From IMG/VR virus record IMGVR_UViG_3300010233_000106, positions 1-36,466 of that record: 36,466 bases of DNA, one strand, 5' to 3'. A program made the translations under genes and the position numbers. Shown piece by piece: positions 3,202 to 29,861 of this stretch. The notes under the pieces were generated by a model, which saw only the letters and a list, made by a program, of their open reading frames with translations, was not told the origin of the DNA and did not search any database. Within the stretch, counting starts at the first letter, position 1, and each line of letters starts with the position of its first letter. This DNA comes from a virus.

Positions 3202-3336
3202 TTATTTTCCACTTTCTAAGTTTTTAAGAGTGTTGATGATTAAAGTTAAAATGCTGTTCGATTGAAGACCTGGAATCAGAGCCAAAGCTTCTGAAACGGC
3301 CAAACAAGCGCCCAAAATTACGGTCATAGTTGTCAT
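3202..3336 (-). CDS. Small hydrophobic protein (44 aa)
   Basis: Starts MTTMTVILGACLAVSEALAL and ends TLKNLESGK. It has a strong binding site (AAGGGGAG) ahead of the ATG and stops 2 nt before the next ATG. The first half is hydrophobic and could span a membrane, but the alternating small residues also fit an amphipathic helix. Next to the lysis genes it could be a holin-like peptide; short proteins of this kind are also found in other phages without a known role. Confidence 0.6.
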   Translation of the reverse strand: MTTMTVILGACLAVSEALALIPGLQSNSILTLIINTLKNLESGK

Positions 3337-3427: not shown

Positions 3428-3994
3428 ATGAAAGAGCTCTGGAAGCCAATAGAGTGTGCTGATGCTGCGTATGAAGTATCGAATTTAGGACGAGTTAGGT
3501 CTTGGTATGTTTACGGAAGCAATAGCGGAAAAAAGGCATTAGAACCCAGAATTTTAAAACCAGATATCAGTTGGTGTGGATATTATCGGATTGCTCTTTA
3601 TAAAAACGGAACTTCTTTCAAAAAACAATTAAGTAGAATCGTTCTTGAGGCTTTTTCTGGACAGCCTCCACACAGCTTTGAAGCCGCTCATTTGAACGGA
3701 ATTAAGGCTGACAACAGATTTCAGAACCTGAAGTGGTGCTCAAAAAAAGAAAACGCATATCACAAGAAACTTCACGGAACCCAAATAGCGGGAGAAACGC
3801 ACCATCTTTCCAAACTAACAAACATGGCCAGATTTTTTATTGTTGAAAAAACAAAGGAAGGTTGGTTCGAAAGAGAAATAGCCGAATATCTCGGAATCAA
3901 AAGATCAAACGTTCAAACTATAAAGAGATCCATGGGAGTAGCTCTAAAATGGGAATATGGCGCGAAACTAAGGAATAAAAAATCTTTTTCCTGA
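3428..3994 (+). CDS. Free-standing NUMOD4/HNH homing endonuclease
   Basis: A 188-residue protein on the strand opposite to its neighbours. The N-terminus has the NUMOD4 DNA-binding motif (WKPIE…YEVSNLGRVRSW, residues 5-27). The centre has an HNH_3-type nuclease core (VLEAFSGQPP…AAHLNGIKADNRFQNLKW), and the C-terminus has a helix-turn-helix-like segment (EREIAEYLGIKRSNVQTIK). Such genes spread by cutting alleles that lack them. It lies between the endolysin gene, whose 3' end it overlaps by 27 bp in convergent orientation, and a 44-residue gene, so it looks like a recent insertion into the late operon. Transcription must come from its own promoter, since it is antisense to late mRNA; I could not identify that promoter confidently. 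Confidence 0.88.
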   Translation: MKELWKPIECADAAYEVSNLGRVRSWYVYGSNSGKKALEPRILKPDISWCGYYRIALYKNGTSFKKQLSRIVLEAFSGQPPHSFEAAHLNGIKADNRFQNLKWCSKKENAYHKKLHGTQIAGETHHLSKLTNMARFFIVEKTKEGWFEREIAEYLGIKRSNVQTIKRSMGVALKWEYGAKLRNKKSFS

Positions 3995-21517: not shown

Positions 21518-21970
21518 TTATTTGAAGGCTTCGAGATAGGCAAAAGCTCTTTGAAGTAGGCCGTCTTTTTCAAGAGTATGAAGGGCCCTGTTGCATCCAT
21601 AGCAAAGAAGCGCCCGAACCTTTTTTGTCTTGTGACAATGATCAACAGCGAGAGGACGCTTTAATCTTTTGTCAGGGATTTTATGACAAATCCAGCACTG
21701 ATAGTCTTGCTTAAGAAGCATCTGCTGATATTGATCTTCGGTGATTCCGTAGCTTCTTTTTAGATTCTTATCTCTAAAATAGAGTTTGTGCTCTGCCCTA
21801 TATTTTCGCATCGATTGATTATATTTATCTTTATTTTCGTGGCGCCATTTTAAGGTAAGGGCCTTTTTGCAGGCTTTACAAATTGTATAATGGCCATCTT
21901 TCGAGGCTCTATCTTTGAAGAATTCTTCTAGCGGTTTTTCAATTTCACATTCATTGCAGGTCTTTTGCAT
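21518..21970 (-). CDS. Free-standing endonuclease VII-like HNH homing endonuclease
   Basis: A 150-residue protein. The N-terminal zinc ribbon (CNECEIEKPLEEFFKD … CKACKK, residues 5-35) is followed by a basic helical linker, YGITEDQYQQML (about 75-86), and the endonuclease VII (HNH) core CWICH … LAVDHCHKTKKVRALLC, then CN. It is a clear paralogue of the intron-encoded enzyme at 23235-23669. It lies 74 nt after the capsid stop and is not inside an intron; free-standing enzymes of this kind cut nearby intronless alleles. An 11-bp hairpin covers its ribosome binding site AAGGAG (see 21974-22024). Confidence 0.88.
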   Translation of the reverse strand: MQKTCNECEIEKPLEEFFKDRASKDGHYTICKACKKALTLKWRHENKDKYNQSMRKYRAEHKLYFRDKNLKRSYGITEDQYQQMLLKQDYQCWICHKIPDKRLKRPLAVDHCHKTKKVRALLCYGCNRALHTLEKDGLLQRAFAYLEAFK

Positions 21971-22044: not shown

Positions 22045-24021
22045 CTACTGACTTAAAGAAACGACACAATTCCAACCGGGTGCGTTGCATATTAAATTCC
22101 CGTAATAGCCAATTCTGATTTCCAATGCATCGGCAGAACCGACTCGTAGACCTTCAAGGCCTTCTAATCCGTAAGTAAGGATATGAGGAATTCGTCCAAG
22201 CGAACGAAGCTTCAAGGTATCCATGCTCAGCAGATAAGCGGTTTGTGTAGGACAGCTACGATCAGGAACAATCGTGATCGGTCCATAAGGAGCGTGAATT
22301 CGAATACCAGCAAATGAGATATTTGCTTCATCGTGTTTCACATCCACATATTGAACCTTAGCGCCGAGTGATTTTTCCAAAGCTGCATAGCTTGTGAAAT
22401 TCATGAAGCACATATCAGGTTGTCCACCTTCACGAGCAACGAGTGCCGCACCGTCAACAAGAGCTTCTTCGATAGATTCAGAAGAACCATCAAAACGAAC
22501 TCCAGCCAAACGAGTGACATCGACTGATCGATCCACACCCCAGAAAGAATCTCCGGCAGTGGGAGCAACTGTAGGAAACCACATCGGGAGTCCAGCAACT
22601 TTCAAGAATTTACCTGTCGATACTTGCAAGCCGTTTGCAGCGAAAGTGATGTCGCCGTCTGCCGCCAAGTATTTAAACGAGGTTGACCAGTTGGTCGGTG
22701 TACCTGCAGAACCACCAGCCGTTGCCGAAACAGTAATCTGTCCAGAACTTCGGTTCACTGCAATCACATATCCAAGCGCTGCACTGGTAGAAACAGTAGG
22801 AGTCGAACCAGAAACAGAATAGCTCGTAAGAACCGTGCCGATTTCAAAGTTAACGACGGTTTGTGAATCAACCAAAACAATCACGCCGCTGGTGATCGAT
22901 GAAATTTGTCCACGCTCTCCAGTAGGAGTGGTGAACAAGTCATGGGCTAAGTCATTCGAAATATTTCGAAAGCCTGTGTCCATGTTAAGCTTCGCTTCAT
23001 CAACGAAAGCTCCAGCATCATCTTTAGTTGCTTCAAGAAGTTCATTCGTAATCGTTACTAATTGATAGTTCGATACACGATAAACAAAGAAGCTCGCTAA
23101 AGCGGGAGCTGTTTGGTTATTTTGTGCATTGCTGAAGCTTGCGCTTCGGCCTTGCGGAGTTCCATAGACCAGGGGCACGGGAATGTATTTCATGCCGCAG
23201 CTGCGGCTTTGTTATCCTAAAAGCTTTTTATCTCTTAGTTCTTAAACTTTTTTAAATATGTAATAGCCTGTTTTAATCTAGGAATGGAGTGTTGTAAAAA
23301 CCCTATTCCAGGATTGCATTCGGTACAGAGAAGCATCCTAATTGCGCCAGTTTTTTTATCATGATCTACATGAAGTCTTCTTTTGAAGGTTGATTCATGT
23401 TGACCGCAACACGCACATTTATGGTTCTGTGCTTCACGCATCTCCTGATATTTTTCTGGAGTGATTCCATAAAATCGCTGAAGACCTCTTTTAAATTCAT
23501 AATCACTATATTTTTTAGGATTCTTAATCTTATTCTGTCTTCGCCATTCATTATGACATTCTTTGCACCAAGAAGTGATTCCGGATTTTCTATCAAACCT
23601 TTTGCCAAAATCAGACTTCTTCTTTTTCTTTTTGCAATTCGTACATATTTTTTCGTTTAAGTTCGGCATATATTTTCATCCAATTCTGGAGCCGCGCACT
23701 CGTGGGGCCTTATATTCTATAGCTGCAAGTTTCATGCCCTATGCTCTACGATGGCTGTTGCTTGTTATTTCAACAGCTTATCTCGGTATTCCCATTTCAG
23801 GGTTCACCGATATTGCGCAGTTTAACGCAGGCAAACACTTTACCTGCGAATCCACCAGGAGACTCGTCCTTCGCGACCAGCGCGAGAAACGGGTTCTTCT
23901 TGTAGCATTTCTGATGGATTTACTTGGCCTACAATTTAACCAAGTCTTTCATATAATCGTCGCCCGTATAAAGTTCTTTTAACGCGGCAACTTGATTGCT
24001 CACATTGCTATATGTAGCCAT
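22045..24021 (-). CDS. Major capsid protein, gene split by two inserts
   Basis: HK97-fold-type major capsid protein in three coding pieces: 24021-23939, 23905-23842 and 23190-22045. Joined they encode 430 residues in one frame: MATYSNVSNQVAALKELYTG…, KDL-VYKKNPFLALVAKDESPGG, then FAG-KYIPVPLVYGTPQG…. Later parts show the usual capsid features (FFVYRVSNYQLVTITNELLEA, ending GWNCVVSLSQ). ATG 24021 has AAGGACA upstream. The piece boundaries coincide with P1 and P10 pairings of a group I intron (651 nt) and of a 33-nt insert. The long ORF from ATG 23193 is not the true start: its ATG is the last three bases of the intron. The frame is clear; splicing itself is inferred. The gene is preceded by scaffold and portal. 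Confidence 0.88.
23191..23841 (-). ncRNA. Group I intron in the capsid gene
   Basis: 651 nt. At the 5' splice site the exon CGCAGGU pairs with intron GCCUGCG (23832-23826) as P1, with U-G at the junction. Just 5' of it, GUGUUU pairs with AAAUAC at the start of the 3' exon (P10). The intron ends in G (23191). Core elements visible: P3 CUGCG (23820-23816) with UGCAG (23727-23723); P4 UCGGU (23810-23806) with ACCGA (23787-23783); P5 CCC/GGG inside it; P6 GCUGUUG (23777-23771) with CAACAGC (23760-23754). P7 I could not resolve by eye. A 14-nt palindrome (23194-23207) ends the intron. The ORF for an HNH enzyme lies after the core. Splicing restores …GGFAGKYIPV…. Confidence 0.85.
23235..23669 (-). 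CDS. Intron-encoded endonuclease VII-like HNH homing endonuclease
   Basis: A 144-residue protein inside the group I intron. The N-terminus is a zinc ribbon with Lys-rich insert (CTNCKKKKKKSDFGK … CKECH, residues 9-40). Then come the linker, YGITPEKYQEM and the endonuclease VII core CACCGQH … LHVDHDKKTGAIRMLLC, then CN. Order and spacing match the free-standing paralogue at 21518-21970. It would cut capsid genes lacking this intron and so spread it. ATG 23669 follows the core by about 45 nt, with weak GGATGA upstream. Confidence 0.88.
   Translation of the reverse strand: MPNLNEKICTNCKKKKKKSDFGKRFDRKSGITSWCKECHNEWRRQNKIKNPKKYSDYEFKRGLQRFYGITPEKYQEMREAQNHKCACCGQHESTFKRRLHVDHDKKTGAIRMLLCTECNPGIGFLQHSIPRLKQAITYLKKFKN
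23906..23938 (-). other. 33-nt coreless group I-like insert in the capsid gene
   Basis: The insert interrupts codon V28 of the capsid protein and carries in-frame stop codons. The exon ACUUGGU pairs with insert GCCAAGU (23928-23922), 7 bp with U-G at the junction, as in P1. UUGUAG (23934-23929) pairs with CUACAA (23905-23900), the first bases after the insert, as in P10. The insert ends in G (23906). Precise removal gives GAC TTG GTC TAC AAG, i.e. …KDLVYKKNPF. All end signals of a group I intron are present but no P3-P8 core. Geometry matches the neighbouring 651-nt intron. It may be spliced by that neighbour's core, or be a deletion remnant or assembly error. Confidence 0.7.
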
Positions 24022-24036
24022 TTTTTAAATGTCCTT

Positions 24037-28093: not shown

Positions 28094-29521
28094 TTATATC
28101 CACTCCGATCCAAAGCCCTTTGTCGCATCCTCTTGGTTCTTCCAATATTCTTCAGCAGCCTCTTCCATCGCTGTCACCTGCTCTTGAGCCCACTCAGGTG
28201 TTCTCTCTTTGTAAACAGGCTTTGCTGCTTGATAGGTAAAGGCTGGAGATTCTTTAAAGGCATAAAGAACCGCATCAATGATATCGCTATGGAATCCATC
28301 CTTCACTTTGATCTTATCTGGAGTACTTTTATCGCGATCAATTTCGACGAGATAGGAGTCCTGAGCAAAACGAGAATCTTTTTTGGCTTTAAAGCGTCCC
28401 GTTCTTAAGGCATCGTTTAAGAATGCAATGTTCTCCATCTTGCGAGCTTTGTCGGCAGCCATTACCGGAATCTGATGCCGTCTACGCAGCTCCTCGGCAA
28501 TCTTCTTACCCAAGCCCCCTTCATCAATTAAAATTTTGGCTGTGTCGTACTTGTTACGCAAACGATCAGCCTGAACGACTAGCTCAGATATACCAGACTT
28601 TGCCATTGTATATTCCTCAACTAGATAAGTCTGTGGCTCCGACTCAGACCATGCCAACACCGCAATCGCATCCGCATCTACAAATCCCAAATCGATCCCC
28701 ATGATGTAATTCCACTTCGCATCTGGAAGCTTATCGTAATGATTTACGGTCTCTTGATATCGAAGAAGTAGCGATTCCGAGTCGAGGACCCATTTACCAA
28801 ACCACTCTCTTTGGATGGAGGGATCGTTGACTGACACTCCTCGTCTATCGAGTTCGCGCTGTAAGAGCTCTCGGTGAGTGGAGCCTGATTTTGCGGTGAT
28901 GAACGGGTTATCAAAAAAAGACCAACCATGCTTAGTCCAAGCAGAAGATCCAACAGCGCAATTATGAAAGTAACCCGAAGGTATCGGGCCCGGAGTTCCG
29001 ATAAGACAAAGACTACCAGAATAATCCATGAGAGCAGGTGCAAGTACGTCATCTATGAGTCCTTCAAGATAGCTTTTGAAGCTTTGCGTTTCGTCGATGT
29101 AACATAATTTTATTGGGAGTCCTCGAAACTTTTCAATTTCGGACTGATCTTTTGCTCCAGAGAGATAGATGATGGATCCGTTTGGAAAACGAATGGATAG
29201 TTCTGTGTTATCAAGATGACCGCCCAAACGGTAAACACGATTAATCCGCTGAAGCTCGGGCCAGATGATTCGCTTAGCATTATTGCGGCTAAGAGTAATA
29301 TACACACAAACAACAGCTTCATTCTTAATCGCAGTTTCAATTAAGTGTGCAGCACAAGCAACAGTCTTTCCTGATCTTCTAGAGCATACAGCCACCTTAA
29401 AAGGCTTCGGGTCATTTACAAATGCAAATTGTTTATCGAATAGAAACTGCTGAAGGCTAAATTTGTTCGTTCGTCTTTGAACTTCTGCAAGCCATAGACG
29501 AGCTTCAGTCTTGGTTGCCAT
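28094..29521 (-). CDS. terL: Terminase large subunit
   Basis: A 475-residue packaging motor ATPase and nuclease that cuts and pumps DNA into the prohead through the portal. The N-terminal ATPase shows Walker A at residues 46-53 (CSRRSGKT), Walker B at about 139-144 (LCYIDE) and a coupling motif LIGTPGP at 173-179. The C-terminal RNase H-like nuclease shows three Asp: D277 (GIDLG), D333 (ILIDEGG) and D413 (GFHSDIIDAVLYA). Length is normal. ATG 29521 is overlapped by 17 nt by the capsid-like fragment gene upstream. A compact set with TerS, portal and capsid downstream. Confidence 0.95.
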   Translation of the reverse strand: MATKTEARLWLAEVQRRTNKFSLQQFLFDKQFAFVNDPKPFKVAVCSRRSGKTVACAAHLIETAIKNEAVVCVYITLSRNNAKRIIWPELQRINRVYRLGGHLDNTELSIRFPNGSIIYLSGAKDQSEIEKFRGLPIKLCYIDETQSFKSYLEGLIDDVLAPALMDYSGSLCLIGTPGPIPSGYFHNCAVGSSAWTKHGWSFFDNPFITAKSGSTHRELLQRELDRRGVSVNDPSIQREWFGKWVLDSESLLLRYQETVNHYDKLPDAKWNYIMGIDLGFVDADAIAVLAWSESEPQTYLVEEYTMAKSGISELVVQADRLRNKYDTAKILIDEGGLGKKIAEELRRRHQIPVMAADKARKMENIAFLNDALRTGRFKAKKDSRFAQDSYLVEIDRDKSTPDKIKVKDGFHSDIIDAVLYAFKESPAFTYQAAKPVYKERTPEWAQEQVTAMEEAAEEYWKNQEDATKGFGSEWI

Positions 29522-29861
29522 AAACCATTGGCACCATTATTTGCTTTGATTGCCAGCCTGGATCTGGATCTTTTGGCAACAGGGCTAAAAACGGATTCTC
29601 GGCATAAATAAGGTCTTTAATGATGGTATCGTTAATAAATAAATCAGATCGATCTTCGTTAAATTGAATTGAATTATAACAATCATTAAATAACCCGCTA
29701 AGACTAGGACCCCCGCCAAGTGTTGATGATATTGCGTTATCAAGGCGACGAAGGTGCCTACCGACGAATTTAACTTCTAGCTTTTTAGCTTTTTGAAACC
29801 AATCTCTGGCAATGCGCAGACGCTCGGCGTTTCGTTGGGCGTTTCGTTGGGCGCTATTCAT
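29505..29861 (-). CDS. Chimeric ORF with capsid N-terminal fragment
   Basis: A 118-residue ORF. Residues 1-44 are basic and helical (RIARDWFQKAKKLEVKF); from about 50 the sequence is a capsid N-terminus. Residues 74-116 (FINDTIIKDLIYAENPFLAL … VPMVYGN) align with the true capsid protein (KDLVYKKNPFLALVAKDESPGG, VPLVYGT). The alignment spans both insert sites of the capsid gene, but here they are uninterrupted. It ends by sliding into the TerL start: TATGGCAACC belongs to both. Probably a remnant of another capsid gene joined by recombination; a retained function is not excluded, since the ORF is intact and coupled to TerS by overlap. Confidence 0.72.
   Translation of the reverse strand: MNSAQRNAQRNAERLRIARDWFQKAKKLEVKFVGRHLRRLDNAISSTLGGGPSLSGLFNDCYNSIQFNEDRSDLFINDTIIKDLIYAENPFLALLPKDPDPGWQSKQIMVPMVYGNQD

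Follow-up and report, generated by a model that had tools for sequence, protein, structure and literature searches.

The window analyzed here is the whole 36,466-base virus record IMGVR_UViG_3300010233_000106, and our subject is an SU10-type major capsid gene on its minus strand. The gene is interrupted by a 651-nucleotide (nt) group I intron with its own P1 and P10 helices and, 64 nt of exon upstream of it, by an insert of only 33 nt. A first-pass annotation of this DNA had recognized both interruptions and suggested that the short one is a coreless group I intron that depends on the long one for its processing. Comparison with relatives strongly supports this suggestion, through P1 and P10 helices that fit each site, a position always 5' of a full intron and a covarying tether. 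It is very likely that the 33-nt insert is a nonautonomous intron (a mini-intron, here "mini") that is spliced in cis by the downstream core, via exchange of P1 helices at a three-way junction. The features concerned are listed below in the direction of transcription.

22045..24022, minus strand: interrupted SU10-type major capsid gene, start ATG near 24022
23939..23945, minus strand: mini P1, 5' exon strand (ACUUGGU)
23906..23938, minus strand: candidate coreless mini-intron, 33 nt, splitting capsid codon V28
23929..23934, minus strand: mini guide, P10 strand (UUGUAG)
23922..23928, minus strand: mini guide, P1 strand (GCCAAGU; first G opposite the exon U)
23911..23920, minus strand: tether arm AAUCCAUCAG, whose target is the exon beside the full intron's P1
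23906..23910, minus strand: mini spacer AAAU and terminal G
23900..23905, minus strand: mini P10, 3' exon strand (CUACAA)
23849..23858, minus strand: exon partner of the tether, CUGGUGGAUU, at -17 to -8 from the full intron's 5' splice site
23842..23848, minus strand: full intron P1, 5' exon strand (CGCAGGU)
23191..23841, minus strand: full group I intron, 651 nt, P3-P8 core with P7.1, proposed source of catalysis

The 33-nt insert and its relatives in other capsid genes

The insert occupies exactly positions 23938 to 23906, where the first-pass annotation had placed it, and brings an in-frame stop (TAG) into the capsid frame. Its junctions read GACTTGGT/TAAATTGTAGGCCAAGTAAATCCATCAGAAATG/CTACAAGAAGAAC on the minus strand, and the capsid gene runs across it as GACTTGGT/33 nt/CTACAAGAAG. 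The group I end features attributed to it are all present: a P1 of 7 base pairs (bp) with a U-G pair at the 5' splice site (ACUUGGU, 23945-23939, with GCCAAGU, 23928-23922), a P10 of 6 bp (UUGUAG, 23934-23929, with CUACAA, 23905-23900) and a final G. P1 and P10 sum to 13 bp (p = 5e-5 for shuffled inserts reaching 13), and the insert scores at most 4 on the flanks of other sites. We also agree that it lacks P3-P8. No catalytic core with a P7 G-binding site is found in any mini, the 30 to 59 nt being fully taken up by guide, tether and spacer. The earlier reading had overlooked the tether arm, a stretch of 10 nt, AAUCCAUCAG (23920-23911). Its pairing partner, CUGGUGGAUU (23858-23849), immediately precedes the P1 of the 651-nt intron, and this pairing would explain the dependence on that intron.

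Capsid relatives were gathered from viral contigs and compared by splice-aware protein-to-DNA alignment. After removal of duplicates there were 106 distinct capsid loci, the window counted among them. The gene is uninterrupted in 80 of these and holds at least one full intron in 26, 18 of which also carry one or two inserts of 30 to 59 nt, 19 inserts in total. The 33-nt insert is neither an artefact nor unique. The inserts occupy six sites, at codons 22, 28, 31, 34, 46 and 51, and every one lies 5' of a full intron, with 23 to 119 nt between them; none of the 80 genes without a full intron has one (Fisher p = 2e-14 against the 18 of 26). The closest relative, L004 (78% protein identity), has a 34-nt insert at the same codon as the window, with a nearly identical 5' half (TAATTTGTAGGCCAAGT) and a different 3' half. 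When only the signature was searched for, 35 cores yielded 13 minis, compared to 1 in 1400 shuffled controls, and a 19th mini-bearing genome, L204, was added.

Searches beyond this set returned little. The window's P1 hairpin had no exact match in viral contigs, and a looser hairpin pattern hit only the contig of L004 and three chance matches. No minis were found in other genes or in the C-terminal half of the capsid gene in the available flanking sequence, where in-frame gaps of 18 to 24 nt resemble ordinary indels. A protein search for the capsid among GenBank phages gave no match, and genome contigs held one distant relative, without minis.

Do all these inserts have group I ends? We scored P1 with the guide G opposite the exon-final U, permitting one exon bulge, and P10 adjacent to it. 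The sums over the 19 inserts range from 7 to 15 bp (combined p = 7e-45 against shuffled inserts; 2e-17 with one value per site), and guides scored on the flanks of other sites average 2 to 6, so that a site-matched P1 and P10 are present in nearly every mini. At codon 31, L134 differs from the other three minis by a compensating change in exon and guide. All 19 inserts end in G, a weak count when taken alone, since the aligner favors G.

An in-frame stop is present in 18 of the 19 minis, and in 12 the length is not divisible by 3. Over codons 1 to 46 of the mini-bearing genes, the ratio of nonsynonymous to synonymous differences (pN/pS) is 0.01 to 0.19; differences are almost only synonymous, and synonymous divergence is nearly saturated, indicating strong purifying selection on the coding sequence on both sides of the minis. 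Frame-breaking lengths within such strongly purified exons mean that removal of the inserts is required.

The tether and the full introns it addresses

The tails of 17 of the 19 minis pair with exon positions -18 to -8 relative to the next full intron's 5' splice site, and the pairing usually stops exactly at -8, abutting the full intron's P1. Compared with shuffled tails the combined p is 3e-28 (4e-10 with one value per site), and the mean score is 21 versus 11 for swapped segments of other loci. The strongest single argument for the putative tether is the comparison of the window with L004. The two share the mini site and have their full introns at codons 49 and 59, and their tails, AAUCCAUCAG and ACUAAGGGAA, each fit the exon of their own full intron. 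Among the codon-46 minis, synonymous exon changes are mirrored in the tail (AUUUUCCUGC/GCAGGAAAAU, UAUUUACCCGC/GCGGGUAAAUA and ACUUACCUGC/GCAGGUAAGU); these pairs were drawn from tails already picked by pairing, and the unbiased test is the scoring of shuffled and swapped tails. In RNA folding, the mini P1, the tether and the full P1 are contiguous helices with linkers of 0 to 2 nt, at a probability near 1 in most cases.

Two minis depart from this pattern in ways worth recording. The tail of the L145 mini (3244-3281) misfits the present downstream intron and matches exon sequence close to codon 30, where L100 has its full intron, as if its partner had changed; intron loss or recombination may have left this mini an orphan. 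The first mini of L111 (308-359), whose tail pairs outside the usual exon segment, is 52 nt long, has an internal hairpin and shows an 8-bp match (GACCAGAG/CUCUGGUC) to the exon 5' of the second mini.

The candidate donor is a group I intron by its own covariation. In an alignment of 22 full introns, P3, P4, P5, P6, P7, P7.1 and P8 covary, the P3/P7 pseudoknot included. In the 651-nt intron and its relatives the core is paired in 96.8% of cells, and 25 of 34 pairs are changed on both sides, a number as high as this being reached in 0 of 500 shuffles. The position of P7.1 between P7 and the 3' strand of P3 suggests subgroup IA, to which we presume the host introns belong. The core and the gene within the intron lie as follows.

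23815..23820, minus strand: P3 5' strand (CUGCGC), partner 23692-23697
23740..23744, minus strand: P7 5' strand (GCAUA), partner UAUGC (23666-23670), which overlaps the endonuclease start codon
23235..23669, minus strand: Endonuclease VII-type (HNH) homing endonuclease gene inside the full intron

In the window (23666-23670) and in many relatives' full introns, the homing endonuclease frame begins within the 3' strand of P7 (MYAEL...), and thus the same bases serve the core and the protein. The donor for the L128 mini is a different intron of 203 nt without an endonuclease gene, and the arrangement may therefore be independent of one core type. Compact capsid-gene introns of this kind, 203 to 224 nt long and lacking an endonuclease gene, lie in L041 (4729-4952, 5736-5944 and 6269-6474; up to three in this genome), L128 (3806-4008) and L162 (5055-5270); Rfam did not recognize those of L041 and L128. 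The introns at codon 15 of L097 (2322-3157) and L108 (3254-3890) have a second core type (P7 GACUA/UAGUC) and an endonuclease open reading frame (ORF) that is GIY-YIG-like by eye.

A proposed reaction and its alternatives

From the observed anatomy, covariation, association, position and protein constraint we infer the reaction, its order and its efficiency. Of a group I intron the mini would have kept the substrate half (the terminal G, and a guide forming P1 and P10) and lost P3-P8. Its tail would pair over about 10 bp with the exon at -17 to -8 before the next 5' splice site. At its pairing end the tether would run directly into the mini guide along one strand and into the full intron's P1 along the other. 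Because of this continuity, the two P1 helices can be viewed as alternative arms of one junction, and the mini P1 could dock in place of the full P1. Guanosine would then attack after the U of ACUUGGU; the terminal G would move into the G site, with P10 aligning the 3' exon, and the exons would be joined. The tether would depart with the mini, after which the full intron's P1 could dock for normal splicing. More generally, the comparison makes it likely that there is a natural class of ribozyme-less group I introns of 30 to 59 nt that recruit the core of the next intron in cis by a retargetable tether, using P1 exchange at a three-way junction, with one core serving two, and sometimes more, introns per gene.

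Where would such introns come from? Relatives hold full introns at the mini sites. L100 has one of 740 nt at V28, with a guide similar to that of the window mini, and the L159 mini lies at the codon-51 site, where L120, L127 and L171 hold full introns. Since full introns occupy the same sites, the minis are most likely core-deletion derivatives that gained or retuned a tether.

Several points weigh against splicing of the minis by the downstream core. The case for mini splicing is drawn from sequence comparison throughout, and all cases are confined to one capsid gene family. Splice boundaries were placed with a small aligner bonus for an exon-final U and an intron-final G. In the four minis at codon 31, P1 forms only with a bulged U, and P1/P10 is imperfect in L099 and the second L111 mini. 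The tether is missing in 2 of 19 minis (L145 and the first of L111), is short in L128 (6 bp) and is interrupted in L120 and L125. Moreover, the full introns scanned matched no group I model in Rfam, their core being established through covariation instead.

The first-pass annotation had left open whether the insert is removed, bypassed or mis-assembled; of these options only removal is supported. Ribosomes might skip the insert during translation, as they do for T4 gene 60 and the bypass elements of yeast mitochondria, with the RNA never being spliced, and short inserts with stops and a hairpin do resemble such elements. However, 10 of 19 minis have matched codons, compared with 0.30 to 0.61 in shuffles, a fit at chance level, no bypass restores the exact product and the take-off codon is different each time. 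Bypass via AAA/AAA and AAT/AAT was rejected in the matched-codon test. Bypassing also leaves P10, the tether to a downstream group I splice site and the strict association with full introns unexplained, and we regard it as very unlikely. Still harder to believe is that the genes are broken and the minis inactive leftovers of deletion or faults of assembly. Deletion is a plausible origin, given the full introns at the same sites in relatives, but the inserts come from many independent contigs and metagenomes and from six sites, P1, P10 and the tether covary, and the flanking coding sequence is strongly purified.

Two further alternatives accept splicing and change the agent. In vitro, a P1 stem-loop supplied separately can serve as substrate for a group I core, and a core acting in trans, either the excised neighbor or another copy, could process the minis in the same manner. 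Yet the partner of the tether is 5' exon sequence next to an intron that is still in place, and every mini is found a short distance 5' of that intron within one gene, which favors action in cis before the full intron leaves; splicing in trans is therefore unlikely. Minis that are themselves ribozymes would be too short at 30 to 59 nt for a group I core. Host or phage proteins recognizing the hairpin are compatible with the present data, but neither an autonomous nor a protein route would need a downstream full intron or a tether, and together we give them hardly any weight.

Related systems and neighboring genes

The proposed splicing of the minis by the adjacent core invites comparison with known elements. 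P7.1-containing group I introns of the subgroup IA-like type, T4 td and its relatives, share with the minis a P1 with an exon-final U-G, an adjacent P10 and a terminal G, and stand as full introns at the same sites in relatives; the minis differ in lacking P3-P8, P7 and the G site and in having a tether to another intron. The group III introns of Euglena chloroplasts are derived from group II, measure about 90 to 120 nt and depend on unidentified general machinery (PMC4424553). Like them, the minis would be reduced to substrate domains, with catalysis coming from elsewhere, but the proposed donor is an identifiable neighboring group I intron, reached through a dedicated helix. The minis show neither the group II derivation nor the domains I and VI of group III introns, their ends being of group I type with P1/P10 and a terminal G. 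In the alternatively splicing group II intron of Clostridium tetani (PMC3919590), one ribozyme likewise performs several splicing reactions on a bacterial transcript; that intron yields alternative products, whereas each mini would be a complete intron in its own right, excised as well as the full one. The insert of T4 gene 60 (PMC5009743) is also a short, stop-bearing insert in a phage gene and possibly an intron relic; it is bypassed at matched GGA codons, and the minis are inconsistent in their take-off and landing codons. Engineered trans-splicing group I ribozymes (PMC6155759) resemble the proposed arrangement in that a group I core acts on a foreign site, but they are designed and carry the guide in the ribozyme, while the mini guide sits in the substrate. 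We found no precedent for natural coreless, nonautonomous or dependent group I introns in the open-access literature, most subscription papers lying outside this scope; within it the novelty claimed for the insert holds, and such dependent introns appear to be undescribed so far.

If the proposed reaction is true, individual introns that lose catalysis and share one core would represent a long-proposed step toward a common splicing machinery, caught here in group I introns of bacteria-infecting viruses, in an essential gene and with a visible recruitment helix. A 33-nt intron and one ribozyme would make a minimal testable system, and one ribozyme programmed to remove many tiny introns could become a tool. 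The finding would also serve as a caution: inserts that are short and break the frame of a metagenomic phage gene may be genuine introns.

Elsewhere in the window, a short ORF on the minus strand (29505-29861) overlaps the terminase start and has a C terminus like the N-terminal region of the capsid (KDLIYAENPFLALLPKD...VPMVYG). The KDLIYAENPF motif reported for this ORF is present, and it is perhaps a duplicated or truncated capsid gene. Immediately downstream of the capsid gene lies a free-standing Endonuclease VII-type gene (21518-21970, minus strand); a NUMOD4/HNH endonuclease gene is located at 3428-3994 on the plus strand.
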